Shown piece by piece: positions 26,833 to 43,081 of a stretch of DNA of 64,000 bases; the first letter of the stretch is position 1; the number at the start of each line of letters is the position of its first letter. The position numbers were made by a program, and so were the translations under genes. Source of the stretch: Halobacteriovorax sp. JY17 (lineage in GTDB: Bacteria; Bdellovibrionota; Bacteriovoracia; Bacteriovoracales; Bacteriovoracaceae); contig NZ_NJER01000002.1 in assembly GCF_002753895.1 (NCBI RefSeq), positions 1 through 64,000 of the forward strand, in the 5' to 3' direction. Under the pieces are notes generated by a model. That model was not told the DNA's origin. It did no database searches and was given only the letters and a program-made list of their open reading frames with translations.

Positions 26833-27258
26833 ATGTCGTCATTCAATCTAGACGTCTACATGCCTGTACTAATCCTCGTGGCCTTTGCCGTCATTATGGT
26901 AGTCGGAGTTTTAGTAGTAGGTATTTTAGTAAGACCTAACAATCCTAATGATCTCAAGTTATCCGCATATGAATGTGGTGAAGAGGCCGTAGGAACTGCT
27001 TGGTCCAACTTTAACATTCGATTCTATGTAATCGCACTTATCTTTATCATCTTTGATGTTGAAGGTGCACTTATGTTTCCAGTCGCTGTTGTCTTTAAGA
27101 AGTTTAATGAAATGGGTGAAGGAACAGTGGTTCTGGCCAGTTTACTATTATTCATTTCTATCTTAATTGAAGGTGTTGTTTATTGCTGGAAAAAAGGCGA
27201 TCTGGACTGGGTAAGAAGTTATCAAACACCTGAAGCAGAAAAGAAAGAGGTTAACTAA
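26833..27258 (+). CDS. nuoA: NADH-quinone oxidoreductase subunit A
   Basis: NuoA is a three-helix subunit near the junction of the complex I arms. The 141-residue protein keeps the Cys-containing loop SAYECGEEAVG (about 44-54) and the motif FNIRFYVIALIFIIFDVEGA (about 60-79). It heads an operon that carries only membrane-arm genes (A, H, J, K, L, M, N). It is directly followed by nuoH with no gap. Confidence 0.95.
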   Translation: MSSFNLDVYMPVLILVAFAVIMVVGVLVVGILVRPNNPNDLKLSAYECGEEAVGTAWSNFNIRFYVIALIFIIFDVEGALMFPVAVVFKKFNEMGEGTVVLASLLLFISILIEGVVYCWKKGDLDWVRSYQTPEAEKKEVN

Positions 27259-28422
27259 ATGAATAGCAGTATCGTTAGTTTTTTTGCAGATAATTTAGGC
27301 TTTGAGGCGACGTCATTTTATGCATTTCTAATTTATGGTTTTGCTTGTTTTATAGTTGTAAATGTTTGCGCTGTAATTGGTGGTTTAGGAACATACGCAG
27401 AAAGAAAAATTTCAGCGGATCTTCAAATGAGACATGGACCAAATAGAGTTGGACCATTTGGGATTCTTCAGTTTCTTGCGGATGGTGTAAAGCTTGTGCT
27501 TAAAGAAGTTATTATTCCAACACAATCAGATAGATTTCTCTTCTTGATTGCACCTCTACTTTGTATGGTTGGAGTATTTGCAACTCTGGCAGTAGTTCCG
27601 TTCTCTAGTGGATTTATTCTTTCAGATTTAAATATTGGTATCTTCTACATTCTTGGTGTTTCATCGCTTGTAGGAGTTGGAATTTTTCTTGGTGGTTATT
27701 CTTCAAATTCTAAGTGGGCAATGCTTGGTGGAATGAGAGGTGCAGCTCAAATTATTTCTTACGAAGTTCCAGTAACTCTTTGTATTCTTTCTATCGTTGT
27801 AATGGCCGGTGGTCTTTCAATGACAACGTTAGTTGAAGGTCAAGGCGGACTTCCACACCAATGGTATATTTTTCATAACCCTTTTACTTTTATTGGGTTC
27901 TTCATTTTCTTTATTGGTATCTTAGCTGAAACAAATAGAGCTCCTTTTGATTTACCCGAAGCGGAATCAGAGCTTGTTTCTGGTTATCATACAGAATATT
28001 CAGGTATGGCCTTCTCGTTTTTCGCATTAGCAGAATATGTAGAAGTATTCGTTGTTTGCGGTGTTGCAGCAGCTCTTTACCTTGGTGGTTACAAGGTTCC
28101 ATTTGATTTAGGCAATGGGGTTTTAATTTCTGAAATTACTGGGGCGCCTAAAATTGTAAGCAACGGTATTGGTCAAATGCTTCAAATTGGTTCATTTTTT
28201 ACAAAGACATTTGCTCTTTACTACGTTGTTATCTGGGTTAGATGGACATTACCAAGACTTAGAATCGATCAGCTAGTAGCACTTTGTTGGAAGTACTTAA
28301 CACCAATTTGTATTTTTAACTTAATTGCAATTGCTACTTGGATGTGGGCTTTTGAAGGTCAATCTGTATACGAATTATTTACTACATGGCTTCACTCCTT
28401 GAGTGCTGGCGGTGGTCACTAA
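27259..28422 (+). CDS. nuoH: NADH-quinone oxidoreductase subunit H
   Basis: NuoH forms part of the quinone-binding chamber. The 387-residue protein shows the signature AERKISADLQMRHGPNRVGPF (within about 47-68; shown in part), FLADGVKLVLKE (about 72-83) and the acidic loop AETNRAPFDLPEAESELV (about 223-240). It ends with the usual helix plus tail (RLRIDQLVALCWKYLTP). Position between nuoA and nuoJ is a reduced version of the standard nuoA-N order. Confidence 0.96.
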   Translation: MNSSIVSFFADNLGFEATSFYAFLIYGFACFIVVNVCAVIGGLGTYAERKISADLQMRHGPNRVGPFGILQFLADGVKLVLKEVIIPTQSDRFLFLIAPLLCMVGVFATLAVVPFSSGFILSDLNIGIFYILGVSSLVGVGIFLGGYSSNSKWAMLGGMRGAAQIISYEVPVTLCILSIVVMAGGLSMTTLVEGQGGLPHQWYIFHNPFTFIGFFIFFIGILAETNRAPFDLPEAESELVSGYHTEYSGMAFSFFALAEYVEVFVVCGVAAALYLGGYKVPFDLGNGVLISEITGAPKIVSNGIGQMLQIGSFFTKTFALYYVVIWVRWTLPRLRIDQLVALCWKYLTPICIFNLIAIATWMWAFEGQSVYELFTTWLHSLSAGGGH

Positions 28423-28443
28423 AATATTAAAGAGGACTTTAGC

Positions 28444-28968
28444 ATGTTTATTAATATCATGTTCATTCTATCTGCCCTATTAGCTCTTGCTGGAGCATAT
28501 GGTGTGGTAGCAAGTAAAAACATTATGCACGCTTGTGTATATTTATTAGCAAGTCTTTTTGGTGTAGCTGGTTTATACGCAACTCTTGGAGCGGATTTCT
28601 TAGCTGCAACTCAGATGGTTGTTTATGCTGGTGGAGTTGTTATCTTAATGCTTTTCGCAGTAATGCTAACAGGTGGACATAGCGAAGCAGTTAATAAGTT
28701 CGGAATAAATAAAATTCCTTCTATGGGAACAGTTAGAACTTTCATTATAGGTACTCTATCTGCTCTAGTTTTAGGTTCTGCAACTTTTAAAATCATTGCA
28801 GGAATGACTAAGCATGTTCAAGGGGAGCTTCCTGCTTTTACATCTTCAGTTGAGAAGATTGGAGTTCTACTTTTAACAGATCATATTTTAGCATTTGAAA
28901 TTTCATCAGTATTACTGCTTGGTGCTCTTGTTGGAGCTGCGGTAATTTCTAGACCAAGGAAACAATAA
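28444..28968 (+). CDS. nuoJ: NADH-quinone oxidoreductase subunit J
   Basis: NuoJ is a five-helix membrane-arm subunit whose third helix changes shape during coupling. The 174-residue protein keeps the pi-bulge helix ATQMVVYAGGVVILMLF (about 56-72). An AGAGGA site precedes the ATG. The stop overlaps the nuoK ATG (TAATG), so J and K are coupled. The normal neighbours nuoI and nuoG are missing. Confidence 0.95.
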   Translation: MFINIMFILSALLALAGAYGVVASKNIMHACVYLLASLFGVAGLYATLGADFLAATQMVVYAGGVVILMLFAVMLTGGHSEAVNKFGINKIPSMGTVRTFIIGTLSALVLGSATFKIIAGMTKHVQGELPAFTSSVEKIGVLLLTDHILAFEISSVLLLGALVGAAVISRPRKQ

Positions 28969-29273
28969 TGGTATCACTTCCATCATTCTTAGTTGTTTCA
29001 CTAATTCTCTTTCTCGCTGGTATTACAGTGATGATTGCAAGAAAGAACGTGATTGCAATTTTACTAGGTATTGAATTGATTCTTAATGCTGCAGCATTAA
29101 ATTTTGCGGCCTATACAAGATTTATAAATAACAATCTTGATGGTCACATTATGTCATTGTTCATCATTGTTATTGCAGCGGCTGAAGCAGCTGTTGGATT
29201 AGCAATTGTTATTAGATTCTATCAAATTAGAGAAAGTATCCATATTGATGATGCTACTCAATTACAAAGCTAA
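28968..29273 (+). CDS. nuoK: NADH-quinone oxidoreductase subunit K
   Basis: NuoK is a three-helix subunit with two membrane glutamates required for proton translocation. In this 101-residue protein both are present: Glu36 in LLGIELILNAAALNF and Glu73 in AAAEAAVGLAIVIRF. Length and topology are standard. Its start overlaps the nuoJ stop by one base. Confidence 0.96.
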   Translation: MVSLPSFLVVSLILFLAGITVMIARKNVIAILLGIELILNAAALNFAAYTRFINNNLDGHIMSLFIIVIAAAEAAVGLAIVIRFYQIRESIHIDDATQLQS

Positions 29274-29290
29274 TTAGGAAGGTTGATTAA

Positions 29291-31471
29291 ATGGATTATA
29301 CTATTTCAACTATTGCACCGATTGTCTTATTTCCGTTCATCGCGTTTGCTATCAATGCATTCATAGCGCGTAAAGCAACAAAAGTCGCAGTATTCATTAG
29401 TTGTGCTGCAATTGCTTTATCGTCGATTTGGGCAATTAGAATTTTTAAAGACTTTATTTTTGGTAATTACTCCACCGATCACTATGTACATAAAGTATTT
29501 ACTTGGTTTGATCTGAATGGAGCAGGTTTAAAATTTAATGTAGATATGGGTGTCTATATAGATAATATGACAGCTGTTATGCTTTTAATGGTAACTGTTG
29601 TTGCAACACTCATTCATATTTTTTCTACTTATTATATGAAAGATGACATGAACTACGGAAGAAACGGAAGGTTCTTTACGTATATGTCTCTTTTTACTTC
29701 AGCAATGCTAGGGCTAGTTCTTTCGGACAACCTCTTTTCAGTATTTATCTTTTGGGAATTAATGGGATTTTGCTCATATAGCTTAATTGGTCACTATTAT
29801 GAAAAAGAAAAAGCTGGAGACGCAAATGTAAAAGCTTTCATGACAACAAGGGTTGGGGATGTATTTTTCTTACTCGGTATTCTAGCTATCTGGACAAATA
29901 TTGGTTCTGTGGGATTCGTAGATATTTATGCTTCTATAGCTGACGGATCATTTGCAACTCATACAGCCCTTGGTATTCCATTGGCTACGTTTGCAGGTCT
30001 TGCAATTTTCATGGGAACAATCGGTAAATCAGCTCAGTTCCCACTTCAAGTTTGGCTTCCAGACGCGATGAATGGGCCTACTCCTTGTTCTGCTCTAATT
30101 CACGCGGCAACAATGGTTGCTGGTGGTGTTTACTTATCACTTAGAATTTATCCAATATTAGACTTGGGTGGGCTTACTACTTTAGTTGCTTATATCGGTG
30201 GGATTACAGCTTTTGGTGCGGCGACAATTGCACTCGTTCAAACAGATTTTAAGGCAGTACTTGCATATTCAACAATTTCTCAACTTGGGTATATGGTTCT
30301 TGGTGTTGGTGTTGGATCTTATAATGCAGCTTTCATGCACTTGATTACTCACGCTATCTTTAAGGCATGTTTATTCCTAAGCGCAGGTTCAGTAATTCAT
30401 TCATTACACGATCACCATACTCATGAGCATGTTCAAGAAATGCCAAGAATGGGTGGTCTTAGACATAAGATGAAATTTACTTGGTTTGCTATGTGGTGTT
30501 GTACTCTTGCGATTGCAGGGATCCCTTTCTTCTCAGGATTTGTATCAAAAGATAGAATTTTAGGTGATGCTCTAATTATGGCCCTTGAAAATAAGGCAAT
30601 GATTGTTCCAGCTCTTCTAGGTTTTGGTGGAGCACTTCTAACAGCATTTTATATGTGTAGAATGATGTTCTTAGCATTTCACGGAGAACCAAGAGATAAG
30701 GATCTGTATGATCATACTCATGAAGAGAAATTCTCATGGAATAGAAACCTTCCACTTTTAATACTTGCTGTATTTACATTGGGTGTTTGGTTTTCAGGAT
30801 CTTTAACAGGTCAAAAATTAATCAAAGTGGCTTCTCCTGAAGGGAAATTAGAATGGTTCTCAACTCTTGTTGCGAAGCCAGATGTATCGAAGTTTTCAGC
30901 TTATAAGAGAGAAGCATGGGCAAGTACTGATACTCGTGAAAAAGTTGCTCCTACTCATTCTCATTATGATCCAGATCATGGAATGACTGAAGAGGAAGCA
31001 CATCATGTTCATCATATACATCATATAGGCGCGATAGTATCAATCATCATTGCTTTTAGTGGTGTATTCATTGCGTATATGATGTATATCAGAAAGTCTT
31101 GGAATCCAGGTTGGTGGGTATCAACTTTTTCTGGTTGGTACAGAGCACTTCAAAATAAATACTATATGGATGACCTTTATATTAAAGGAATTATTCAGAA
31201 AGGGTTACTACCTTTGAATAACTTCCTAGCTTGGTTAGATATGGGGATTTATGACCGTTTCATCGTTGATGGATGGGTAACTGTAAATAGAGGCCTTTAC
31301 ACATTTTCGAAATGGTTTGATGACCTTTGGGTTGATACGATTGCGGTTGATGGAACAGGAGCGAGTGTAAGATTGTTTAATGTTGTTTTAAGAACATTAC
31401 AATCTGGAAAGATTCAGTTCTATTTCATTATGATTATTGTTGTTTTAGCTGGTTACATATTAGCATTATAA
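29291..31471 (+). CDS. nuoL: NADH-quinone oxidoreductase subunit L
   Basis: NuoL is the distal antiporter-like subunit with the long lateral helix. The 726-residue protein has the key helix-5 glutamate in FIFWELMGFCSYSLIGHYY (about 153-171), the lysine segment GKSAQFPLQVWLPDAM (about 239-254) and the C-terminal amphipathic helix and last membrane segment (LQSGKIQFYFIMIIVVLAG, about 703-721). An unusual His-rich segment lies before the lateral helix (THSHYDPDHG, then HHVHHIHHIG, about residues 556-583). AGGA-type ribosome site upstream. Confidence 0.96.
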   Translation: MDYTISTIAPIVLFPFIAFAINAFIARKATKVAVFISCAAIALSSIWAIRIFKDFIFGNYSTDHYVHKVFTWFDLNGAGLKFNVDMGVYIDNMTAVMLLMVTVVATLIHIFSTYYMKDDMNYGRNGRFFTYMSLFTSAMLGLVLSDNLFSVFIFWELMGFCSYSLIGHYYEKEKAGDANVKAFMTTRVGDVFFLLGILAIWTNIGSVGFVDIYASIADGSFATHTALGIPLATFAGLAIFMGTIGKSAQFPLQVWLPDAMNGPTPCSALIHAATMVAGGVYLSLRIYPILDLGGLTTLVAYIGGITAFGAATIALVQTDFKAVLAYSTISQLGYMVLGVGVGSYNAAFMHLITHAIFKACLFLSAGSVIHSLHDHHTHEHVQEMPRMGGLRHKMKFTWFAMWCCTLAIAGIPFFSGFVSKDRILGDALIMALENKAMIVPALLGFGGALLTAFYMCRMMFLAFHGEPRDKDLYDHTHEEKFSWNRNLPLLILAVFTLGVWFSGSLTGQKLIKVASPEGKLEWFSTLVAKPDVSKFSAYKREAWASTDTREKVAPTHSHYDPDHGMTEEEAHHVHHIHHIGAIVSIIIAFSGVFIAYMMYIRKSWNPGWWVSTFSGWYRALQNKYYMDDLYIKGIIQKGLLPLNNFLAWLDMGIYDRFIVDGWVTVNRGLYTFSKWFDDLWVDTIAVDGTGASVRLFNVVLRTLQSGKIQFYFIMIIVVLAGYILAL

Positions 31472-31502
31472 AAATTATTTTCTATATAAAGAGGAGTTGA
31501 CG

Positions 31503-33044
31503 GTGAGTGGAACGTCGAATTTATTAAACTGGATTCTTTGGATGCCGATGCTTGGTGCTCTAGGTGTATTACTTATTCCTAAAGCAAAAGAAAACGCGAT
31601 TAGATTTTGGGCCCTAGCAAATACTGCTATAACAATGGTTCTTACTGCTAAGCTTTGGATGGGATTTGATAATTCTATCGCAGGTATGCAAGAAGCATTT
31701 ACAGTAAAAATTCCTTGGATTAAGCAATTCAATATTTTCTATCACCTCGGTGTAGATGGAATTTCACTTCCAATGATACTTCTAACTTCAGTTATACTAT
31801 TTATTTGTATTCTAAGTTCATGGACAGTTAAGAAACAAATTAAAGGATACTTTGCTTTAATTCTCTTCTTACAAAGTACTATTTACGGAGTGTTCTTCTC
31901 CTTAGATTTTTTCTTATTCTATGTTTACTGGGAAGTAATGCTAATTCCAATGTTCTTCTTAATCGGTATTTGGGGTGGAGAGAACAGAGAGTATGCCGCT
32001 GTTAAGTTTTTTCTTTATACATTCTTTGGTTCAATCCTAATGCTTGTTGGTATGGTTGCTCTTTATCACGCAACTGGAAAAGGAGTAGACTCATTTGATC
32101 TACTTGCTCTTAAGGCCAGTGCTGATGAATTTATTAAAATGAAAGTAAGCCTATTTGGAACAGAAGTAGCATTTGATAAACTATTCTTCATGTTTATGTT
32201 CATTGGTTTTGCAATTAAGGTTCCAGTATTTCCATTCCACACGTGGCTACCACATGCTCACGTTCAGGCACCAACAGCAATTTCAGTAATTCTGGCAGGT
32301 GTTCTACTTAAAATGGGTACATACGGTTTCTTAAGAATTGCCTTCCCTATTTTTCCAGGTGCAGCAGTTTACTTTTCTAACTTCATAGCAATTCTTGGAT
32401 TAATAAATATTATCTATGGTGCTTTCTGTGCAATGGCACAAACAGATGTTAAGAAGCTTATCGCATACTCTTCAGTATCTCACATGGGATTTGTGATGAT
32501 TGGTATGGCCGCAATGACTTCTCAGGGTCTTAACGGTGCAGTTCTTCAGATGTTTAACCACGGTACTTCTGCAGCAATGATGTTCCTTCTAATTGGTGTT
32601 CTTTATGAAAGATCTCACCATAGATGGATTGTTAGACCAGATGGATCTAAAGGTTTTGGTGGTCTTTATACTCAGATGCCAACATTTTCGATTGTATTTA
32701 TTATCGGAATGTTCGCGGCCATGGGTCTTCCAGGATTGTCAGGATTTATTTCAGAAGCATTAATCTTCTTTGGAATTTATCAGAAATTTACAACAATGAC
32801 TGTTCTAGCACTTCTAGGTCTTCTTATTGGTGCAGCTTACCTACTGTGGATGTTCAAGAGAATGTTCTTTGGAGAAGTTGTTGAAGAATGTAAATCATAT
32901 ACAGATATGAATGCGAGAGAAATTTTCTATATGCTGCCACTTTGTATTGCTGTAATTCTTTTTGGAATTTGGCCATCACCAATTTTGGACATCATGAAAG
33001 CTTCAGTTAATTCTCTAGTTACTTTATTGGCGAATTATCAGTAA
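31503..33044 (+). CDS. nuoM: NADH-quinone oxidoreductase subunit M
   Basis: NuoM is the middle antiporter-like subunit. The 513-residue protein has the helix-5 glutamate (YVYWEVMLIPMFFLIGIWGG, about 140-159), the helix-7 lysine (GFAIKVPVFPFHTWLPHAH, about 236-254) and ISEALIFFG near the helix-12 region. I place the start at GTG 31503: GAGGAG at 31491-31496 is then 6 bases upstream, whereas TTG at 31497 would touch the ribosome site directly. Confidence 0.95.
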   Translation: MSGTSNLLNWILWMPMLGALGVLLIPKAKENAIRFWALANTAITMVLTAKLWMGFDNSIAGMQEAFTVKIPWIKQFNIFYHLGVDGISLPMILLTSVILFICILSSWTVKKQIKGYFALILFLQSTIYGVFFSLDFFLFYVYWEVMLIPMFFLIGIWGGENREYAAVKFFLYTFFGSILMLVGMVALYHATGKGVDSFDLLALKASADEFIKMKVSLFGTEVAFDKLFFMFMFIGFAIKVPVFPFHTWLPHAHVQAPTAISVILAGVLLKMGTYGFLRIAFPIFPGAAVYFSNFIAILGLINIIYGAFCAMAQTDVKKLIAYSSVSHMGFVMIGMAAMTSQGLNGAVLQMFNHGTSAAMMFLLIGVLYERSHHRWIVRPDGSKGFGGLYTQMPTFSIVFIIGMFAAMGLPGLSGFISEALIFFGIYQKFTTMTVLALLGLLIGAAYLLWMFKRMFFGEVVEECKSYTDMNAREIFYMLPLCIAVILFGIWPSPILDIMKASVNSLVTLLANYQ

Positions 33045-33056
33045 AAAGGTGAAGAA

Positions 33057-34532
33057 ATGCTTTTAAATTATTTAGCAAGTATAGGTCGATTTATCCCAGA
33101 GATTGTTCTGGTTGTAACAATGATTGGCCTTCTGTTTGTTGAGTCTACTTATGGCGAAAATGATAAAGGAAGCAAGAAAGGCTACCTTTATGCTACAGCC
33201 TATATAGGTTTAATCCTTTCGTTGGCTCAACTTGTTGGTTCTCTTGGAGATGCTCCAGGTGGAATATTTACAAATTCTCTGACTATTGATCCTTTTAGTA
33301 CTCTAGCTAAAATCATTATGGTGATCGGAACAGCTGGAGCAACTTATCTAAGTCGTAGATCAAGTGATATTTACAGCGAGCTAAAAGGTGAATTTGTTAT
33401 TATATCAATTGGTGTTTTAATTGGTGGAATGCTCTTAGCTTCTGCTAATAATATGCTTATGCTGTATATAGGAATTGAAACTCTTTCAATTCTTTCTTAT
33501 GTTCTTGCATCTTTAAAAAAGAACGATGATAGATCATCTGAAGCAGGACTTAAATATTCACTATATGGCGGAATTTCAGCAGGGATTATGCTCTTTGGTT
33601 TAAGTCATATCTTTGGTGTTGTTGGAACAATCCAATTTACAGGTATGATTGCTAAGTTACAGACCTTAGATACAATGCAAATAGCTATCCTAATGCCGTC
33701 GTTCTTAATGTTCTTCGCAGGTATCGGATACAAGATTGCTTGTGTTCCATTTCATATGTGGGCTCCAGATGTCTACGAAGGTTCGCCTCTTCCTGTCACA
33801 ACTTTCTTCTCCATAGTGCCTAAGATTGCAGGAATTGCAGTATTAGTTAGAGTTACTATGGCGTTCTTTGGTGGGGAGACAACAGCTCTTCAGATGACTT
33901 GGGTGGGAACTTTAAGTGTAATCGCAGCTCTAACAATGACAGTTGGAAATGTTTCAGCAATTGGGCAAAGATCAGTTAAAAGAATGTTAGCTTACTCATC
34001 AATTAGTCATGCAGGTATGATGATGATGGGTGTCGTTTGCTTGACTGAAATTGGAGTTACAGGAATTCTGTTCTACGGTATCACTTACCTATTTATGACT
34101 CTTGTTGCTTTCTTTATTACATCTTTTGTTCAAGACGAATATGGAAATGATCATTTTGAAAGATTTAATGGCCTTATTTTTAAGCACCCATTAATGGCCA
34201 TTTTTATGATTATCACAATGTTCTCACTTGCTGGAATTCCTCCATTTAGTGGATTCGTAGCAAAGTTTAATATTTTTAATGCTTTAATTGATAAGAACTT
34301 CTATGTTTTAGCAATCATAGCGGGATTAAATTCTGTTGTAGCTCTATACTACTATCTTAAGATTGTAAGATTAATGGTATTTAAGCAGAGCGAGAGTGAT
34401 GAGAAGATTGGAGGATTTGTTTTTTCTAATCAAGTCGCTATTGCAGTACTAACTGTTCCAGTCGTCTTACTCGGTGTATTCTGGGAAAGTATCATTCATG
34501 TTGCTAATGGAGCTAAGATCTTTATCCAATAA
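33057..34532 (+). CDS. nuoN: NADH-quinone oxidoreductase subunit N
   Basis: NuoN is the proximal antiporter-like subunit. The 491-residue protein has the helix-5 glutamate (MLYIGIETLSILSYVLASL, about 137-155), the lysine segment GIGYKIACVPFHMWAPDVYEG (within about 222-242; shown in part) and the late helix SLAGIPPFSGFVAKFNIF (about 388-405). It is the last recognisable nuo gene. Its stop overlaps the start of the first gene of a second seven-gene membrane cluster (TAATG), so transcription and translation run on. Confidence 0.96.
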   Translation: MLLNYLASIGRFIPEIVLVVTMIGLLFVESTYGENDKGSKKGYLYATAYIGLILSLAQLVGSLGDAPGGIFTNSLTIDPFSTLAKIIMVIGTAGATYLSRRSSDIYSELKGEFVIISIGVLIGGMLLASANNMLMLYIGIETLSILSYVLASLKKNDDRSSEAGLKYSLYGGISAGIMLFGLSHIFGVVGTIQFTGMIAKLQTLDTMQIAILMPSFLMFFAGIGYKIACVPFHMWAPDVYEGSPLPVTTFFSIVPKIAGIAVLVRVTMAFFGGETTALQMTWVGTLSVIAALTMTVGNVSAIGQRSVKRMLAYSSISHAGMMMMGVVCLTEIGVTGILFYGITYLFMTLVAFFITSFVQDEYGNDHFERFNGLIFKHPLMAIFMIITMFSLAGIPPFSGFVAKFNIFNALIDKNFYVLAIIAGLNSVVALYYYLKIVRLMVFKQSESDEKIGGFVFSNQVAIAVLTVPVVLLGVFWESIIHVANGAKIFIQ

Positions 34533-34855
34533 TGGAAGGTCTAAACTTCAATATATTTATAATTATTTCATCAGGTCTAAGCATTTTCTTAATTGTTTGG
34601 GCCTTTTTTATTAAAACACAGAAAAAAGACTTTCAAACAGATAGCGCGAAGCAATTCGTAACCAGCTCTGTTTTAAACCTCAGAACAACCTTGCAAATCT
34701 CACTTAGTATTTTATCAATTTTTATTTTAACTCTGATCATAAGAGGTTGGGAGTTGGGCGAGCTTTTTACAAGGGAAAACCTTTTATTAATAGTACCTTT
34801 TATTCTATCATTAGTTGTAGTTTTACTAATGGAACCACTGTCACGGAAGAGCTAG
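34532..34855 (+). CDS. Three-helix membrane protein, diverged NuoA-like
   Basis: A 107-residue protein with three hydrophobic helices (about 7-26, 53-70 and 82-101), the size and layout of NuoA. Its start LNFNIFIIIS resembles the FNLDVYMPVL start of the operon's own NuoA. The conserved NuoA Cys loop and FxxRFY motif are absent. The NuoA-like call rests mainly on position: it is first of seven genes whose order and sizes parallel nuoA-H-J-K-L-M-N immediately upstream. The ATG overlaps the nuoN stop. Not recognisable on its own. Confidence 0.6.
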   Translation: MEGLNFNIFIIISSGLSIFLIVWAFFIKTQKKDFQTDSAKQFVTSSVLNLRTTLQISLSILSIFILTLIIRGWELGELFTRENLLLIVPFILSLVVVLLMEPLSRKS

Positions 34856-34856
34856 T

Positions 34857-35753
34857 TTGGATAGTATAAGTAATGGGTTCGCTCCTGTTGTGGCCACAAC
34901 ATTTATGATCTTATTGTTTACTGTGATGATAGGATTTATTGATAAAGCTCTTAGACACGAGGCTTTGGATACTTATAAGGAATCGCTAAGGAACTTTAGA
35001 ATAGTTAGGACCTTTAAGATAAGCTTCTTAAACACTTCTATTTTCTCTCTCACACTTTCTTTAATAAGATTTAATATACTTTTTTACCTTTCAATTAAAA
35101 CGATTGGAAATATGCTTTATGGGAGTGATATTTTTCTTTTTGATTTAACTTACATAATCACTTTCGTAATAGTCTGCGAGTTTTTATTTTTTTTAAAAAC
35201 CAAGAAAAAGAATGAGATAAATGAAGTCTCTACACTTCCACTAGTAATAGTGATTACTCTTTCTTTAATTGGAGCTTTAAAATTAAGTTCAAACCTCATA
35301 CTTGAAAAAAATATATTCTGGCTACCGAGTGGCCTTTACTTAAGTAATTGGACAATATTAGAGTTTCCTTTGATCTTAATTCCTATGTTCTATATTCTGA
35401 TTGCTCTTTATACAAGAATAATAAAATCATCTGTCGCTTTAAGATATAATACCCTTGACCGTTTATTTGATTTTTTAAGTAATAATTTGCTCTATATTTA
35501 TATGGCCTGCTTCTTTCTTAGGTCAGTTATGGGGGGAGTCATTGATATAAACTTAATAGGATTTAAAGAATTAGCTTTTTTAAACTCTTTTCTATCGTTT
35601 CTAATTAAGTTTGGAGTAATAACAGTTGGGACAAGACTGCTAATAAGATTTTTACCATCTATTGTGGACGTAAGGAAAAAGAACTTGCTCCCATTAGCAG
35701 TTCTGATTTTATTTAATATACTTCTCGTGCATTTTGCGAAAGGAAGCTTATGA
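34857..35753 (+). CDS. Multi-helix membrane protein, diverged NuoH-like
   Basis: A 298-residue protein with about eight hydrophobic helices, starting at TTG 34857 after GGAAGAG. Its C-terminus (FLPSIVDVRKKNLLPLAVL, about 265-283) lines up with the NuoH end (TLPRLRIDQLVALCWKYL): a basic cytoplasmic turn between the last two helices. The NuoH quinone-site loops (ERKxSADLQ, AETNRAPFD) are not present, so it cannot act as a normal NuoH. Second in a seven-gene set collinear with nuoAHJKLMN. It overlaps the next gene by four bases (ATGA). Confidence 0.65.
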   Translation: MDSISNGFAPVVATTFMILLFTVMIGFIDKALRHEALDTYKESLRNFRIVRTFKISFLNTSIFSLTLSLIRFNILFYLSIKTIGNMLYGSDIFLFDLTYIITFVIVCEFLFFLKTKKKNEINEVSTLPLVIVITLSLIGALKLSSNLILEKNIFWLPSGLYLSNWTILEFPLILIPMFYILIALYTRIIKSSVALRYNTLDRLFDFLSNNLLYIYMACFFLRSVMGGVIDINLIGFKELAFLNSFLSFLIKFGVITVGTRLLIRFLPSIVDVRKKNLLPLAVLILFNILLVHFAKGSL

Positions 35754-36217
35754 TTACTTTCTTAATTGTCATCGTTTTTATTATTGCAAACTTCTCAATG
35801 ATAATTTCAAATAAATCTAACTTTAAAATTTTATTTAGTTTTTTAGTAAGTTTGATTGTCTTTATATTTTTAAATAACTTGAAATATGAATATGCAGATC
35901 TTTATCTGAATTTTATTACACTAATGAATTTTATGGCGCTTAGTTATGTGAAATTTTCTCAAACGGGACGCATCCGCGTGTTACCCTCAAAACGTAATAA
36001 TAAAACAAATAATATGATGCCAATCGTAAGCTCACTTGTTTCAACACTTTTAGTATTAATTCTTTTGAATGGAGTTAGTGATGAAATTCTAGAAAGAGAT
36101 ATTCTTTCGTTAAGAGAGACGAGTCAGGATTACTTTCATGATGTGAATATAATGTTTGTTGCAGGAATTAGTTTCACTGTACTCTTTATATTCCTGATGA
36201 AAAGAGTGAGAGAATAA
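35750..36217 (+). CDS. Membrane protein, diverged NuoJ-like
   Basis: A 155-residue protein with five hydrophobic segments. Its first 75 residues align in spacing with NuoJ: ISNKSNFKILFSFLVSLIV against ASKNIMHACVYLLASLFGV, then ADLYLNFITLMNFMALS against ADFLAATQMVVYAGGVV, and a final helix followed by a basic tail (FLMKRVRE against VISRPRKQ). The glycine pair of the NuoJ third helix is lost. Third of seven collinear genes. Its stop overlaps the next start by one base. Confidence 0.68.
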   Translation: MITFLIVIVFIIANFSMIISNKSNFKILFSFLVSLIVFIFLNNLKYEYADLYLNFITLMNFMALSYVKFSQTGRIRVLPSKRNNKTNNMMPIVSSLVSTLLVLILLNGVSDEILERDILSLRETSQDYFHDVNIMFVAGISFTVLFIFLMKRVRE

Positions 36218-36498
36218 TGACATATATACTACTCATCTCTTTAATTTTGATCACATCTATAGTTTCAATTTATATGATGTTTGCAAGACAAAATGCAATT
36301 GACTATTTCTTGGGTCTCACCCATATATTTACACTATTCATACTTGTTACTTACTATATAGAATTAGTGCATAAAGTATCATTTGAAGGGTCTTTAATAA
36401 CTATTTTTGGAGTTATCTTCTCAGTGGCGATTCCTTCTGCTGTGATAATAAGATTTAAGTATTATCAAGACAAAGGTAATAGTAATATAGAAGGATAA
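36217..36498 (+). CDS. Three-helix membrane protein, diverged NuoK-like
   Basis: The 93-residue protein is the clearest shadow copy. ARQNAIDYFLGLTHI (about 23-37) aligns with NuoK ARKNVIAILLGIELI, and the end SAVIIRFKYYQD (about 74-85) aligns with LAIVIRFYQIRE. Both membrane glutamates essential in NuoK are replaced: the Glu36 position is Thr35, and the Glu73 position is about Ser69. It should therefore not carry protons as NuoK does. It sits fourth of seven, where nuoK sits in the upstream set. Confidence 0.78.
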   Translation: MTYILLISLILITSIVSIYMMFARQNAIDYFLGLTHIFTLFILVTYYIELVHKVSFEGSLITIFGVIFSVAIPSAVIIRFKYYQDKGNSNIEG

Positions 36499-36499
36499 G

Positions 36500-38020
36500 A
36501 TGTTTGAATTAATTATACTTATTTCTATGGCCCTTGTTGTAATGTCTAAAAAGATTACAAATAAGTATGTGCCAATTTTTGGAAGATTACTTCAGATGGT
36601 AATTTCCATTTACTGTCTAAGTTCAGGTAAATTGGGCCTTGGTGCAAACCTTCTAGGATTTGAAGAAACCTCTTCACTTATTTATATCTTTACGATAGCT
36701 CTAATTTCTTTTGATCTTGATATAAATCTTAAAGATATAAAAATAAGAGAAATATTATTTCTATGTTCTAATGCCTTACTCTTGTCTGATCAAATTTCAA
36801 CAATTCTTATCACTATATTCTTAATTTTATTAATTTATCTCACTACACGCAGGGCTTATTTAATTGATTATATTTCAATATTTATTTTTAGTCTTATTTC
36901 TTTGATTTACTATGCTGAACTTTCGACAACAATATTAACTCTAAAAGATAGCTATTATCTTTATTTGACACCAACGTCTGAGTATTTATTCTTCCCTCTT
37001 TTAATTGCTTTTTGTTTTATAGAGTACATGAGGCTCTGGGGAAATCTAAGAAGAATAAGTACACTTCTTGTCGTAACTCCATTGTTTCTTATTTATAAAC
37101 TAAAGTTAGCAAATAATATTGATACTCAAGTAGCACTCTTTCTTCTTCCTTTATTCCTGCTTCCAATACTTGGTGAATGTTGCAAGCTATTTAAGAAAAA
37201 AACGATATCTTACGCAATTAATATATTATTTCAAACATCCTTAATGGCGAGTTTTACTTATGTATTATTTGCCAAGTATGAGTTGGCAATTGTTTCAAGT
37301 CTAGTTCTTCTCTTAATTTTGACTATTTATTCAGTTATGAAAAAGATGGTGGAAAGAAATGAGAGAATAATCATAACTTATTTTACGCTAATTAACTTGG
37401 CCGCAATTCCTCTTAGTTATTCAGGTCTTCTCTTTATTGATCTGATAAGTCTTAGTGGAAATTTTGTTGTAACAATTTCTTTGTTAGTAGGAGCTTTAGT
37501 CTCGTGGATAATCTTCGGTTTTGTAATACGAAAACACTCTGATGAACTTTTTATAAACGTACTTGAATCAACGTTTGAAGTGAAGCTTACTACTGGATTA
37601 GCTTTTATCCTAACAATATTAATTATATTCTTTAATCTATCTTTATTTGTAAGCAGTGAGAAGAATGGTTATAAGTTGATGCAAGTATTATTTCATACTA
37701 AAGAAAAAGTCGCAGAGGTAGGCCTTTTAAGTTATAACCTGAATTTTATAATCTATATTCTTTTGTTTGTTGTTGTAGGATATTTTCTCAAAGTAATAGA
37801 TGAGCGAAAAGCATGGCGTGGAGCATTCGTTCTTAATGAAGCCGTTAAAAGTGTAACACCTTCAAGAATTGAGGTTATAAATACATTAAAGATATCTAAA
37901 GAAAAAGATACACTTAATAAGGTGAACTTTTCTACAGAGGGGCAGACTTCAAGCTTTCAAATTTCATTCTATATACTAATTTTATTTTTGATTGTTAGTT
38001 TAGCGATAATTGAGTTTTAA
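36500..38020 (+). CDS. Multi-helix membrane protein, diverged NuoL-like
   Basis: A 506-residue protein with about 15 hydrophobic helices. LLLSDQISTILITIFLILL (about 93-111) aligns with NuoL LVLSDNLFSVFIFWELMGF, but the key glutamate is replaced. A segment NLAAIPLSYSGLLFID near residue 300 resembles the antiporter-family motif SLAGIPPFSGFVAK. The C-terminus keeps a charged amphipathic stretch and a last helix (SSFQISFYILILFLIVSLA) matching NuoL GKIQFYFIMIIVVLAG, so a lateral helix may be retained. About 220 residues shorter than NuoL. Confidence 0.7.
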   Translation: MFELIILISMALVVMSKKITNKYVPIFGRLLQMVISIYCLSSGKLGLGANLLGFEETSSLIYIFTIALISFDLDINLKDIKIREILFLCSNALLLSDQISTILITIFLILLIYLTTRRAYLIDYISIFIFSLISLIYYAELSTTILTLKDSYYLYLTPTSEYLFFPLLIAFCFIEYMRLWGNLRRISTLLVVTPLFLIYKLKLANNIDTQVALFLLPLFLLPILGECCKLFKKKTISYAINILFQTSLMASFTYVLFAKYELAIVSSLVLLLILTIYSVMKKMVERNERIIITYFTLINLAAIPLSYSGLLFIDLISLSGNFVVTISLLVGALVSWIIFGFVIRKHSDELFINVLESTFEVKLTTGLAFILTILIIFFNLSLFVSSEKNGYKLMQVLFHTKEKVAEVGLLSYNLNFIIYILLFVVVGYFLKVIDERKAWRGAFVLNEAVKSVTPSRIEVINTLKISKEKDTLNKVNFSTEGQTSSFQISFYILILFLIVSLAIIEF

Positions 38021-38818
38021 ATGATACTAATTTTTTTAATTTTTACAATATTCACAATTTTTCTTCGCTTAAGAGAATCGAGAAGCATACAAGAATCAAT
38101 TCCTTTTCTTATTGTAAGTATTATTTCTTGGATTTCATTCTTATTCTATATTTACTTAGATAATGAATATTATCTACTTGCTACATACGAAATAACATCA
38201 TTTGTGATTATTCTTCTTTTTGGAATAAGACTTGAGAGGTTCTTTCAACTTAAGTTTTTGGGGTTCTTTTTTCTTTCCTTAGTCTTTATATTTGGCGGTA
38301 TTTTTAAACAAGAAATATTATTCATGTATGTCGTTCTATCAACGATAGTTGCCCTCTCATCTAATTTTCTGGCTGATAGTAAGGTAAAGTATCCTTTCAT
38401 TCAGTTTAATATTATATCATTGATGAAGGCAAGAGAGTTTATCACTTCTCCAGTTGCTGTGGATGTTTTTCTCATTGCAATGGCTTTCTTGTTAATTTTT
38501 CTAATAGTAAATAAGTGTAGAAAATTCTCATCGGAGTCAATTTTTATCATGACAATACTTTGGCTAGGAGTATTTACATTCTCTATTAATGTTTATTTCT
38601 TACTTCTTGCTATTTTTCTATTACTATTGATTTCTCTTTTAGAGGTATTTAAAATAGGACTCTTTAGAAAAAAAGAAGATTTATTCATTTATATTGTTTC
38701 TCTAATAATTACCATTCCTTTAGCAAGGGCTTCTCTTACTTCTGCGATGGCCTCTCTCGCAATTTTTACATTCTGTCTTTTTATAAATAGAAGAATGATT
38801 GAAGGAGAAGAGCTATGA
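38021..38818 (+). CDS. Multi-helix membrane protein, diverged NuoM-like
   Basis: A 265-residue protein with about eight helices, half the length of NuoM. YIYLDNEYYLLATYEITSF (about 43-61) then ILLFGIRLERFFQLKFLGF aligns with NuoM FFSLDFFLFYVYWEVMLIP then FFLIGIWGGENREYAAVKF, keeping the helix-5 glutamate as Glu57. The matching helix-7 lysine and the later half of the antiporter fold are not evident. Sixth of seven collinear genes: it starts directly after the previous stop and overlaps the next gene by four bases. Confidence 0.65.
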   Translation: MILIFLIFTIFTIFLRLRESRSIQESIPFLIVSIISWISFLFYIYLDNEYYLLATYEITSFVIILLFGIRLERFFQLKFLGFFFLSLVFIFGGIFKQEILFMYVVLSTIVALSSNFLADSKVKYPFIQFNIISLMKAREFITSPVAVDVFLIAMAFLLIFLIVNKCRKFSSESIFIMTILWLGVFTFSINVYFLLLAIFLLLLISLLEVFKIGLFRKKEDLFIYIVSLIITIPLARASLTSAMASLAIFTFCLFINRRMIEGEEL

Positions 38819-39819
38819 ATGAATTTATTAATAAATATGATTGGCAGATGACATCACAAATTTTTCTTATTATAGGAATAGTGGTTTCGATAGTGTTTCA
38901 TAAGAGATTTAAAAAGTATGATGAAGCCCTTGTTTCTTTACCCTTTTGTTTCTGTTTGGGCATTTCTATTTTTAATTCAGATAATTTAATAGCATTTATA
39001 TTTTTTTCGGAGATTATTTTTAATCTTTCAAATATCTTATTTAGAAATAGATTTAAGCAGTATGATAATAAATTCTTTGAAAATGTTCGTTATGTGTTTT
39101 GGGTTATACTTCTATTTTGTTATTACTACTCCTTTAACACCTTTACTTTTAATGCGGTTCCAAAGAATACGGGGCTTGAGCTAACGTTTATTGTTGTTTT
39201 GCTATTGAGCATTGTGTTTATTAAAATAATTTACTTCTTTTTAAGAAGTGATCATATAAAAGAAAGCATCAACGAAGTTGTTGGTTATGAAATATTTACT
39301 GTTTTTGTATTTAGCCTGAAGTCTATTCATATCTCTTCTGGCTTAATGGATTCGATTCTTCCAAGGCATCACGGTGTAATTGATGTACTTATTCTTCTCT
39401 ATATTGTTTTGGGAAGTGTTCTATGTATTAAGTTTTATAAAAGCGAAAGTATAGAAAAGTTAAAATCAATGATACGTGGCCTTGTTATCATATCTCTATT
39501 TCCTCTTCTTGTGATAGGAGAGAATGTATTTTGGGAGGATTATATAGCTTTTTCAGTATTATTAGTCACGACACTTCTCTTCTTTGATCTAGTTGTAAGT
39601 TTTGCTAAGAGTGGAAGATTTAAGTCATTACTTGTCTTCGTTCTTCTTTGTTTACTCTCAGGAGTGAGTCCCTTTGGACATCTTTTTAAGATTTTTAAAA
39701 GCTTAGTTGATAATGGTAGTCAGGAACTGTTCTTCTTAGGAATAACAATTAGCACTTTAACATTGGCACTTATTTCAAAGAAGCTTTTCATGCTTTGTCT
39801 TAATGAGCGTGAAGCTTAA
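38815..39819 (+). CDS. Multi-helix membrane protein, diverged NuoN-like
   Basis: A 334-residue protein with about ten helices. NSDNLIAFIFFSEIIFNLS (about 54-72) aligns with NuoN SANNMLMLYIGIETLSILS, keeping the helix-5 glutamate as Glu66. VFIKIIYFF aligns with the GYKIACVPF lysine segment (Lys137), and FSLKSIHISSG with IVPKIAGIAVL (Lys169). LLSGVSPFGHLFKIFKSL near 285-302 matches SLAGIPPFSGFVAKFNIF. It retains more of the ion-pathway residues than the other shadow genes. Last gene of the operon. Confidence 0.72.
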   Translation: MNEFINKYDWQMTSQIFLIIGIVVSIVFHKRFKKYDEALVSLPFCFCLGISIFNSDNLIAFIFFSEIIFNLSNILFRNRFKQYDNKFFENVRYVFWVILLFCYYYSFNTFTFNAVPKNTGLELTFIVVLLLSIVFIKIIYFFLRSDHIKESINEVVGYEIFTVFVFSLKSIHISSGLMDSILPRHHGVIDVLILLYIVLGSVLCIKFYKSESIEKLKSMIRGLVIISLFPLLVIGENVFWEDYIAFSVLLVTTLLFFDLVVSFAKSGRFKSLLVFVLLCLLSGVSPFGHLFKIFKSLVDNGSQELFFLGITISTLTLALISKKLFMLCLNEREA

Positions 39820-39922
39820 GCATTTGAAATAATAGGAAATTCTTTCCACACTCCTCATTAAACACTTAGCGCTATTATGCGATATAATTACTTAGTATAA
39901 GTATTTATTTTAATAGGCTTTG

Positions 39923-42900
39923 ATGGGTAAGAAATACAGAGTTAAATTATTAAATGATCGTGTGGTTGGTCCTTTTGTTACGGAGCAAATCGGTGAGTTA
40001 TTCGCTAAGGGTCACCTTTTAGGGGATGAGAGGTGCCAAATTTTTCCTGTCGGCGATTGGCAGAGTTTAAAAGACTTTGCAGAAATTAAAGCAATGCTCC
40101 TAAAAGTTACTCAAGAGGGGAATTTATCTGTTGAAAATTCTGGAGACAGAACTCAAACTTTCGCAAGAATAAATAAGCCTAAAAATGATAGTAATAAAAA
40201 TCCAGTGAAAGATAAAAACTTTCAAGAATTTCAATATAAGAAAGAAGATTTAAGTCGTGTAGATTATGGAGCGTTAGAAGAAAAGTATCAAGAAGATGTA
40301 AAAGATTTAGAGTCCATTGAGGAAGAACTTGGGCACGTAAAGGAAGAGGAAAAATCGGAGAATGATGACGGAATTGAAAAAACAAGAATTATCAATCGAA
40401 GTGCATTGAATAATGTTGATGTTGATAAAACAGTCATTGTAAACCCCAATCCTTTTCTAGAAAAAATAGAGGAAGTTGAAAATCCGTTAGAAGTAGAGAG
40501 TAATTCAGAAGAAGACGATAAAGAGGAAGAGAAAAAAGAAGAAGTTCTAAACACAAGTGAAGCAACAGAGTTTATAAATGTAAGAGAGTTGTTACCAGAT
40601 TTAAAACAAGTTGTAAGTGTTGCAGAGAAAGAATTTGAAGATAAAGTTCGAGAAGAAGCCTTAGATGACGAAGAGCCTGTTAATAAAAAAGAAGAAGAAG
40701 TTGAAGAGGTAAAGAAAGCTAAGAGAAAGAAGACAACTCCTATTGTGGCACTTGCCTTTATTGTTATTCTTTGGGTATTACTTTTTCCTGAAAAAGAAGT
40801 TAAAAGTCTAGATCCAGTTAGAGTTAAAATCCAATTTCCAATACAGGCCGAATTCTTAGATAGTGTCAAAAGTGTTGAAGCTTTAAATAAAGGACTTGAA
40901 TACTACTCTCAGGGAACATACTTATCCAAAATAAAGGCCTCCTTAGAATTTAGTAAATCTTTACATCATCAATTCAAAAACAACAAAGCATTAGGTTATT
41001 TGATACTTTCTTATGCTGAAGTTTTTGAAAATTCTAGTGATGAAAATAAAGCGGTCAGAACTCTTTTTAAATTAATTGAAATTGCTCGTAGTAAACTTTT
41101 GTCAGATGCTAACGTCGCTGCAGGAAGTGCACTTTTCTATAAAAAGATAGGCAAAGCTCAGAGTGCAAATAGAATTCTTGAAAATTTTATTAGAATTAAT
41201 AAACCTACAGTAAGTGTCCTAACGATTTATCTAGATGTCCTCATTGAAGTGGGTAACTATATAGAAGCAAGGAAAGTTTTTGATCTTCTTTTAAAAGTTA
41301 AAAAGAAGAGAGAGGCAACATACTTAAGCCTTATCAATTTCTATGAAGAAAATGACTTACAAGATAAAGTAAGTGAACTTCTTACTGAGGCGAGAAACTC
41401 TTATCCAAAGTCAATTCCTCTTCTTCTTAAATATGCCAAGTACCAATTCGATATTGGAGATTACAAGAAGTATGAGGCAGTATTAAAAGTTATTAAGACT
41501 CTAAACTCTGGTAGATCACCCAGATACTACGCAAAATTTCTTGAATATACGGGTATACTTGCGGCAATTAAAAAAGATAACAACCAAGCAGCGAAACTTT
41601 TTAAGCTAGCTCTTAGGATTCATGAATCTGATGAATTGAGGTCTAAACTTTCTCTTTTAGAGCTTGGTGGGTCAACTAACGTCGAGAAGATTATTCTCGA
41701 AAGTAAGATTGTTGAGCTAATGAAAAAAGCGAAAAATGCAGTAAAAGAAAGAAAGTGGGAGACAGCTTTTATTAATGCAATTAAGGCTTCAGATTTGGAC
41801 AGCTCTTATATTCCCTCACAACTTCTTCTCGGAAATATTCAGGTTAAGCGAGGATATTATGAGGATGCCATAGGTACATTCAACAGAATGAAAAAAGAAT
41901 ACCCACTTAATAAGAAGATAAATGTCTATCTTGTTGAGGCCTATATCAAAGCATTCAAATTGAATAAGGCAGAAATTGAGCTTAGGACAATCTCTCAGTC
42001 TAAATTAAGTGATAGTTATATTTTTTACTCTCTTCAAGCTAAGTACTATTTAAGAAGAGAATTTTATGAGAATGCTATTTCTAAATTTAAAGAAAGTATA
42101 AAGAGAAATCCAGTAAATGATGATGATTACTTTCAGCTTGCTAAAATCTATCTTAAGTTTAGAAAGTTCAAGGCCGCAAAGAATATGCTAACGAGATCTA
42201 TTGCTCTTGATCCTGTTAACGTTGAGTATCACACAGCCTACGCAAATATTCTCTACGAGCTAGAGGGAGCTGAAACAGCAATTGGTTATCTTAGAAACTT
42301 ATTAAAGCAAAATAGAGATAATCCAAAAATTCTCGGTGACATTGCAATCTACTACTATAAGAATGGAGAGAATCTAGAGTTTCAAGAGTATAAGAAAAGA
42401 ATTGAAAAACTTGCAAGTACCGACGCTAGTTTCTATGAATTTTTAATTTATTCTGCCGAGTTAGATGATCGTGATGATGATGTTATTAAATACGGAAAAG
42501 AGTTAATTAAAATTAACCCAGGTGATTTAGACGTACAAATAAAACTTGGAAAAAGCCTTTATGACAAGGGACTTTATAAAGAAGCTCTTGCTATGTTCGA
42601 GTCAATCCTTGCTCGTTTAGCTTCTTTTCCAAGAGCGAACTACTATCTTGCTAAAACATATATAAAATTAAAAGATATTAAGAAGGCCAAGGAAATGGCA
42701 GATAAGGAAGTGGCAAATAATCCGACACTAGAGTTTGGTTATTTTATTTTAGGGGAAGTTTTTCGAATTCAAAAAAAATATAGAGAAGCAGAATTAAACT
42801 TCAAGAAGTCGATCTCAAGAAATGGCCGCTATGTTGAGGCCTTAATGGGGATGGGTTGGATAAAGTGGAAGCAAGGCTATCTTGATCGTGCTAGAGAATA

Positions 42901-43081
42901 TTATTTAAAGGCCCTTAAAGAAAATCAGAATAATGGTGAAATCCATAGAGCGCTTGGTTATATCTACAAAGAGATTGGTCAGAGTACTTTAGCTATTGAC
43001 TCTTTTAGAGTTTATCTTGATCTAACACCAGCGGCGAAAGATAGAGCACAAATTCAAAATTTAATGAAGAGTTTAAGGTAG
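39923..43081 (+). CDS. GYF-domain, membrane-anchored TPR protein
   Basis: A 1052-residue protein, start at ATG 39923 (a TTG lies just before it). Residues about 4-60 form a GYF_2-like domain (VVGPFVTEQIGELFAKGHL, WQSLKDF). A long acidic linker (about 90-265) contains three threonine motifs of similar form (DRTQTFARI, EKTRIINRS, DKTVIVNPN). One membrane helix follows (TTPIVALAFIVILWVLLF, about 271-288), then about 20 TPR-like repeats to the end (for example LGKSLYDKGLYKEALAMFE). The protein should have a cytoplasmic adaptor head and a periplasmic TPR scaffold. Domain style recalls gliding/envelope proteins of myxobacteria and Bdellovibrio. Function unknown. Confidence 0.85.
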   Translation: MGKKYRVKLLNDRVVGPFVTEQIGELFAKGHLLGDERCQIFPVGDWQSLKDFAEIKAMLLKVTQEGNLSVENSGDRTQTFARINKPKNDSNKNPVKDKNFQEFQYKKEDLSRVDYGALEEKYQEDVKDLESIEEELGHVKEEEKSENDDGIEKTRIINRSALNNVDVDKTVIVNPNPFLEKIEEVENPLEVESNSEEDDKEEEKKEEVLNTSEATEFINVRELLPDLKQVVSVAEKEFEDKVREEALDDEEPVNKKEEEVEEVKKAKRKKTTPIVALAFIVILWVLLFPEKEVKSLDPVRVKIQFPIQAEFLDSVKSVEALNKGLEYYSQGTYLSKIKASLEFSKSLHHQFKNNKALGYLILSYAEVFENSSDENKAVRTLFKLIEIARSKLLSDANVAAGSALFYKKIGKAQSANRILENFIRINKPTVSVLTIYLDVLIEVGNYIEARKVFDLLLKVKKKREATYLSLINFYEENDLQDKVSELLTEARNSYPKSIPLLLKYAKYQFDIGDYKKYEAVLKVIKTLNSGRSPRYYAKFLEYTGILAAIKKDNNQAAKLFKLALRIHESDELRSKLSLLELGGSTNVEKIILESKIVELMKKAKNAVKERKWETAFINAIKASDLDSSYIPSQLLLGNIQVKRGYYEDAIGTFNRMKKEYPLNKKINVYLVEAYIKAFKLNKAEIELRTISQSKLSDSYIFYSLQAKYYLRREFYENAISKFKESIKRNPVNDDDYFQLAKIYLKFRKFKAAKNMLTRSIALDPVNVEYHTAYANILYELEGAETAIGYLRNLLKQNRDNPKILGDIAIYYYKNGENLEFQEYKKRIEKLASTDASFYEFLIYSAELDDRDDDVIKYGKELIKINPGDLDVQIKLGKSLYDKGLYKEALAMFESILARLASFPRANYYLAKTYIKLKDIKKAKEMADKEVANNPTLEFGYFILGEVFRIQKKYREAELNFKKSISRNGRYVEALMGMGWIKWKQGYLDRAREYYLKALKENQNNGEIHRALGYIYKEIGQSTLAIDSFRVYLDLTPAAKDRAQIQNLMKSLR

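Follow-up and report, generated by a model that had tools for sequence, protein, structure and literature searches.

The window, the whole 64,000-nucleotide stretch of DNA analysed here, lies on contig 2 of the 3.47 Mb genome of Halobacteriovorax sp. JY17, which is related to predatory bacteria, and encodes a primary proton pump plus a second, strongly altered copy of the membrane half of complex I (Table 1). The primary nuoA-H-J-K-L-M-N genes are followed by seven ORFs (34532-39819) that start at the final base of the nuoN stop codon, are separated by -4 to +1 bases and repeat the order A-H-J-K-L-M-N. The sizes of the seven ORFs track those of A-H-J-K-L-M-N with a rank correlation of 0.89 (permutation p 0.006). 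A gene for a 1053-residue TPR protein follows N2. In most of the family genomes read, nuoN or N2 is followed by a protein of similar size, whether or not a second arm is present; none was seen in the genus g4 loci of the second batch of 33 genomes.

Table 1. Genes of the primary and second membrane arms in the window, with the features by which each was assigned.
Feature	Position	Strand	Length (aa)	Remarks
Primary nuoA-H-J-K-L-M-N	26833..34532	+		Intact, directly upstream of second set; operon context and comparison arm
True nuoK	28968..29273			Carries Glu36 and Glu73
A2, NuoA-position protein	34532..34855	+	107	Three hydrophobic segments; ATG shares one base with nuoN stop; place and size
H2, NuoH-position protein	34857..35753	+	298	Profiles; C-terminal NuoH block recognisable
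J2, NuoJ-position protein	35750..36217	+	155	Place and size, weak profile
K2, NuoK-like protein	36217..36498	+	93	Lacks both essential glutamates; profile
L2, NuoL-position protein	36500..38020	+	506	Place and size, weak profile
M2, NuoM-position protein	38021..38818	+	265	Place; invariant Glu57 and Lys78
N2, NuoN-position protein	38815..39819	+	334	Profile; invariant Glu66 and Lys169
TPR protein	39920..43081		1053	After N2

None of the seven second-arm proteins of the window was named by Pfam or NCBIfam. The seven families were compared 7 x 7 by profile-profile alignment of the first arm, the intact second arms of relatives, the eroded second arms (25 rows) and the rows of the window genus. 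All seven diagonal pairs between the intact second arm and the first arm scored 99.3-100% (intact A2 to NuoA, 99.9%). The eroded profiles matched the intact second arm at 98.8% for H, 94% for N, 38% for K, 7.4% for J and 3.9% for L, the K, J and L values being the best of their rows; eroded H2 also matched NuoH at 96.4% and eroded N2 matched NuoN at 52%. The eroded A and M profiles showed no similarity to intact A2 or M2 or to their first-arm counterparts. When the window-genus rows were compared alone with the first arm, K reached 15.6%, the best of its row and a clear preference for NuoK, and the other diagonals remained below 2%, the H2 rows giving nothing; five-row profiles of the genus recovered K, N faintly and no others. 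No reliable profile-profile alignment of L2 to NuoL was obtained, which leaves the helix-5 glutamate loss proposed for the L-like protein putative. HMMER iteration seeded with the intact second arms (1545 sequences, 1335 decoys) picked up no window-genus member in any of the seven families, and the AlphaFold2 models of N2 (mean pLDDT 43.8, two rows) and M2 (54.3, one row) were too poor for the fold to be read. Because these homology searches fell short, the case for A2, J2, L2 and M2 is made mainly from order and place: H2, N2 and K2 are assigned by sequence and place, J2 and L2 mostly by place with weak profile backing, and A2 and M2 by place alone. Weak matches to K2 and N2 outside the genus (five genomes each, E 1e-3 to 1e-2) were discarded; several contain stop codons.

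A reading of the window made from its sequence alone had pictured a shadow membrane arm. The set belongs to something larger, a second complex I with a co-inherited soluble part that includes B, CD and I. The window genome encodes two NuoD proteins: the primary NuoD sits with B, C and I, and the second belongs to a locus elsewhere in the genome made up of a lipoprotein gene, nuoB2, a nuoCD2 fusion and nuoI2. B2 and CD2 were above their Pfam cut-offs, and CD2 matched solved NuoCD chains. All four N2-cluster cysteines of B2 and all eight cysteines of I2 were present in the five genus members, and the window genome encodes the B, C, D and I subunits of a complex I Q module with the ligands of clusters N2, N6a and N6b. 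The second locus of the genus lacked the residues of a complex-I-type quinone reductase: the histidine of the NuoD motif GPxHPxxHG was replaced by lysine in all five members, and its tyrosine partner by phenylalanine in four of them. In complex I, these two residues hold the quinone head. NuoF (PF01512) had no match in any of the five genus genomes, and E2, F2 and G2 were absent from their second soluble loci; the second soluble locus of the relative G004 carries E2, F2, G2 and the NuoD histidine.

By simple pattern counts over 29 second soluble loci, the four cysteines of B2 were complete in 17 and incomplete in 11, with B2 not found in one; both I2 motifs were present in 20 and none in four, with I2 not identified in five (one at a contig end); and a single locus carried the full NuoD motif. 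Three relatives (G104, G087 and G024) keep lipoprotein-B2-CD2-I2 and have no membrane arm behind nuoN. Their four-segment gene of about 360 codons behind nuoI2 was considered as a shrunken NuoH and rejected because its profile scores were nil and its His-box pattern fits a fatty-acid desaturase. At L158, L159 and L160, the genes for the lipoprotein, nuoCD2 and nuoI2 remain (B2 in two of the three), and the Fe-S cysteine patterns and the arm behind nuoN are gone. The lipoprotein gene that precedes the second soluble nuo genes (L058:11893-13413, - strand) encodes 506 residues with ten cysteines, and the same position is taken by a lipoprotein in other lipoprotein-type second soluble loci. It was dropped as a candidate member of the complex, as the wider gene order around it is also shared and it has no Pfam match.

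The K2 ORF, which starts with ATG, was intact in all five genus genomes; its homologues in the genus are 47-74% identical to the window copy, and 30-31 of 93 columns are invariant. K2 scored 14.2 bits against Pfam Oxidored_q2 (PF00420; cut-off 26.1, E 0.038) and had no NCBIfam hit. The earlier observation that Thr35 stands where NuoK has Glu36, and about Ser69 where it has Glu73, was confirmed. Thr35 fell on Glu36 whether the eroded K2 profile was aligned to the profile of first-arm NuoK or to that of intact second-arm K2, and Ser69 was placed at the Glu73 site by a gapless count back from the VIIRF block, where MAFFT puts a gap. No genus member carried glutamate at either site, the residues being T, T, S, V and I at the Glu36 site and, by the gapless count, S, V, V, L and F at the Glu73 site. 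As to whether the replacements are fixed among related genomes, both sites are free in the genus and no single residue has taken the place of glutamate. The last seven residues of K2 (GNSNIEG, 36475-36498) are identical in all five members; a GAAGGA ahead of L2 sits in the same DNA as their codons, so the constraint may act partly on the RNA.

Among 30 second-arm K2 sequences, both glutamates were kept in four, all from relatives, and Glu36 alone in a fifth; in additional relatives both were present in 14 (nine of the family and five of the outgroup) and neither in two. Every intact K2 seen keeps Glu36 and Glu72 except that of G056 (Glu36 only), and graded intermediates were found in G076, G077 and G078. 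K2 descends from a NuoK gene, as indicated by its synteny with intact K2, by the graded intermediates, and by the matches of the eroded profile to intact K2 and of the window-genus profile to NuoK. Homologues that keep the glutamates, which the sequence-only reading had held to speak against its claim, exist in deeper relatives; the observation in the window stands, and the loss is derived. Indeed, because the same seven genes of relatives form a plain second complex I arm with both glutamates, the window set is a derived and eroded one.

Across the genus, M2 has 13 invariant columns out of 264, in which Glu57 and Lys78 are the only charged residues; N2 has 34 out of 330, Glu66 and Lys169 included. 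Both profile alignments matched N2 Glu66 to NuoN Glu141 (Glu133 in E. coli); Lys137 and Lys169 fell 2 and 6 residues off the TM7 and TM8 lysines, so that these two assignments are approximate. The statement that the M-like protein keeps Glu57 was borne out in all five members; for the N-like protein it was borne out for Glu66 and Lys169 and failed for Lys137, which is present in the window copy alone. The TM7 lysine of NuoN was gone from four of the five members (kept in one) and the TM12 lysine (Lys395 position) from three (kept in two), and the TM5 glutamate of M and N and the TM8-like lysine of N were invariant. Together with the absence of the NuoK glutamates, this pattern supports the selective loss of part of the ion path that had been proposed; the charged central axis that runs through K, L, M and N in proton-pumping complex I was not found in K2 and N2.

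The invariant Glu57 and Lys78 of M2 and Glu66 and Lys169 of N2 might be taken to indicate a re-engineered ion transporter, in which these remaining residues still carry ions along a path bypassing NuoK. This is highly improbable, given that the TM12 lysine of N2 survives in two of five members and the NuoK glutamates in none, and that the distal L2 is the least conserved subunit. It is further disfavoured by mutants of ordinary complex I: in a study of Paracoccus (PMC9802314), membrane-arm mutants lose activity without uncoupling. A second study (PMC13073174) gives Lys247 and Lys395 of E. coli NuoN as needed for activity and Glu133 as not needed. If the E. coli and Paracoccus data carry over, a complex stripped of these residues would be inactive by the canonical route and not a loose pump.

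Between the window and its nearest relative, the proteins of the primary arm are 88-99% identical, and those of the second complex 81% (B2), 76% (CD2), 74% (K2), 72% (A2), 69% (J2), 67% (I2), 66% (H2), 53% (M2), 48% (N2) and 39% (L2), so that conservation declines from the soluble part outwards, down to the distal antiporter subunits. In the closest pair, pN/pS was 0.15-0.61 for all ten second-complex genes (each p <= 5e-11), values that the near-saturated synonymous sites bias upwards, not downwards. Purifying selection thus acts on all ten genes; it is several-fold weaker than in the primary arm and greatest close to the soluble part. A dN/dS near 1 had been named as the sign of decay; with pN/pS of 0.28-0.61 for the seven second-arm ORFs of the closest pair at the same significance, decay is unsupported for the genus. 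In other genera saturated sites make selection hard to see: the pairs L034-L035, L026-L027 and L028-L031 gave pN/pS of 0.57-0.94 with three gene comparisons not significant, and genus g35 gave 0.39-0.70, over distances too great to be decisive.

The region behind nuoN was examined in 66 family genomes (33 + 33; G119 was read twice). A second arm in some form was present in 44 and absent from 19, and the contig ended too soon in three (G071, G074 and G128). Intact or full-length arms numbered eleven and came from nine genomes of genus g4, from G064 (the part seen before the contig ends inside the arm) and from G056. In intact relatives, complex I profiles detected the second-arm genes. A second arm also follows the first in G291, G251, G236 and other outgroup genomes; between A2 and H2 of G291 and G251 lie three soluble ORFs, with a match to NuoF among them. 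The 33 eroded sets show every degree of erosion, with NuoH or NuoK profiles still matching in genus g35 (G076-G078) and mostly not elsewhere. The K ORF is absent from the listed second-arm ORFs of G055. In G115 (L208), the arm consists of four ORFs of A, H, J and K size and one 214-residue, seven-segment membrane ORF in place of L, M and N, before the TPR gene, a truncation that looks as if the distal subunits go first. Among the four named records nearest by NuoN (L078-L081, Bacteriovoracaceae and Bacteriovoracia MAGs), the arm of L078 was intact as far as the contig goes, that of L081 was eroded, and L079 and L080 had none. Erosion took place in parallel, because the first-arm protein tree places G004 and G056 among the eroded genera.

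Such parallel loss in many genera would be expected from slow decay of a redundant complex that is under relaxed selection, has not yet been deleted and works little or not at all. The several-fold higher rates relative to the primary arm fit this reading, as do the 19 loci that have no arm, many of them with the TPR gene directly behind nuoN. We nevertheless consider it unlikely, since all seven ORFs were open in 27 of 27 set-bearing loci of the first batch at or near synonymous saturation, pN/pS in the window genus is far below 1, and invariant Glu and Lys residues persist in the otherwise free M2 and N2. As a supernumerary partner, the second arm would be docked on the primary membrane arm, or joined with primary complex I in a hetero-dimer, and would stabilise or regulate that complex; such a role would need shape and could dispense with catalysis. 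It would suit a set that follows the primary arm in the same orientation in 44 of 66 family loci, with window gaps so small that the two are probably made together, and one that persists in lineages that have lost the Fe-S ligands. Two observations make this role somewhat unlikely: conservation peaks at B2 and CD2, which are encoded elsewhere, and not at the membrane arm, and outgroups already carry their intact second arm behind nuoN, a location that therefore needs no new explanation.

A report on Bacteriovorax marinus includes mention of a Na+-NQR (PMC4014512), and a strong match to PF03116 (260 bits or more, our definition of NQR presence) was found in 52 of 77 family genomes. An NQR gene accompanied 31 of 33 eroded and 1 of 11 intact second arms (p 3e-7) and was found in 10 of 19 family genomes without a second arm; by genus, the counts were 17 of 18 eroded and one of three intact (p 0.04). 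These tests, like the NuoF counts below, are uncorrected for ancestry, and the association between NQR and erosion rests largely on shared ancestry. Exceptions were G040 and G041, eroded and without NQR, and G056, full length and with NQR; in G040, NuoF lies next to another NuoD. A NuoF-type match was present in 24 of the 25 family genomes without NQR and in 14 of the 52 with it, counts that overstate NuoF in both groups as PF01512 also hits related flavoproteins. About 26 kb separate an NqrB-type gene (333 bits; G000:C1:1246822-1247865) from the second soluble locus (L058, G000:C1:1210000-1229900), and the spacing is similar in several relatives. The simplest explanation is redundancy, with another NADH dehydrogenase doing the work of the second complex I.

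On balance we lean towards the view that the second NADH-driven complex I, once redundant, persists as a non-pumping Fe-S or scaffold complex, a present role that we infer from its genes. Its ancestor was an ordinary NADH-driven, proton-pumping second complex I, of a kind that some relatives have kept intact. In this family, NADH oxidation was probably taken over by Na+-NQR or by another classical complex I, and the second complex, probably thereafter, lost NuoE, NuoF and NuoG, the quinone-binding histidine of NuoD and some residues of the proton path, both NuoK glutamates included. What remains in the genus, B2, CD2 and I2 with all Fe-S cysteines together with A2 to N2, is encoded as a set and is under purifying selection. 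If produced and assembled, it probably does something other than proton pumping, and would most likely be a non-pumping, membrane-anchored Fe-S complex serving in electron transfer or as a docking scaffold beside primary complex I. A role as an electron wire cannot hold family-wide, because the Fe-S cysteines have been lost from the loci of other genera. More tentatively, a whole complex I may have become hollow, with no NADH module, no canonical quinone ligand and a broken proton path, and its ten remaining subunits may have been kept by selection for a new non-pumping task, in parallel across the family once Na+-NQR had rendered its NADH oxidation redundant.

Complex I is mostly encountered as the whole enzyme, charged axis included, or not at all. 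Across the related genomes there is a gradation from a complete pump to a gene set retained without the pump residues, and this series shows which parts of complex I survive once pumping is no longer needed. The eroded sets also supply natural variants of the charged positions for comparison with mutagenesis, and hint at a possible second function for the complex I scaffold, in a culturable lineage. Among the titles and abstracts listed from openly licensed papers, none dealt with a second or degenerate complex I in Bacteriovoracaceae.

K2 resembles NuoK (PF00420, PRK05715) in length (93 and 101 residues), in its three hydrophobic segments, in the ARxNxI and RF blocks and in its place between J and L; it differs in lacking Glu36 and Glu72/73 and in scoring below the family cut-off. 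The second arms of relatives (G004 and genus g4, G064 and the outgroups G291, G251 and G236) likewise lie behind nuoN in the same gene order, and G004 shares the second soluble locus with the window genome; unlike the window set, these arms keep both NuoK glutamates and full-length L, M and N, and G004 also keeps NuoE, NuoF, NuoG and the NuoD histidine. The primary complex I of the window genome, and not the second, is of the 11-subunit type without an NADH module (26833-34532 in the window, with B, C, D and I on another contig, L059:6903-9759), NuoF being absent from the genus. The second complex is like the 11-subunit type in having no NADH module and in keeping, in the genus, the Fe-S cysteines of the Q module; however, the 11-subunit type is described as an active energy-coupling engine, whereas the second complex is without the quinone histidine and the proton-path residues. 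Mrp-type antiporters and membrane-bound hydrogenases share homologues of NuoL, NuoM, NuoN and NuoK. The second complex differs from both in having a NuoH homologue and a NuoC/NuoD fusion that matches complex I best, and not hydrogenase.
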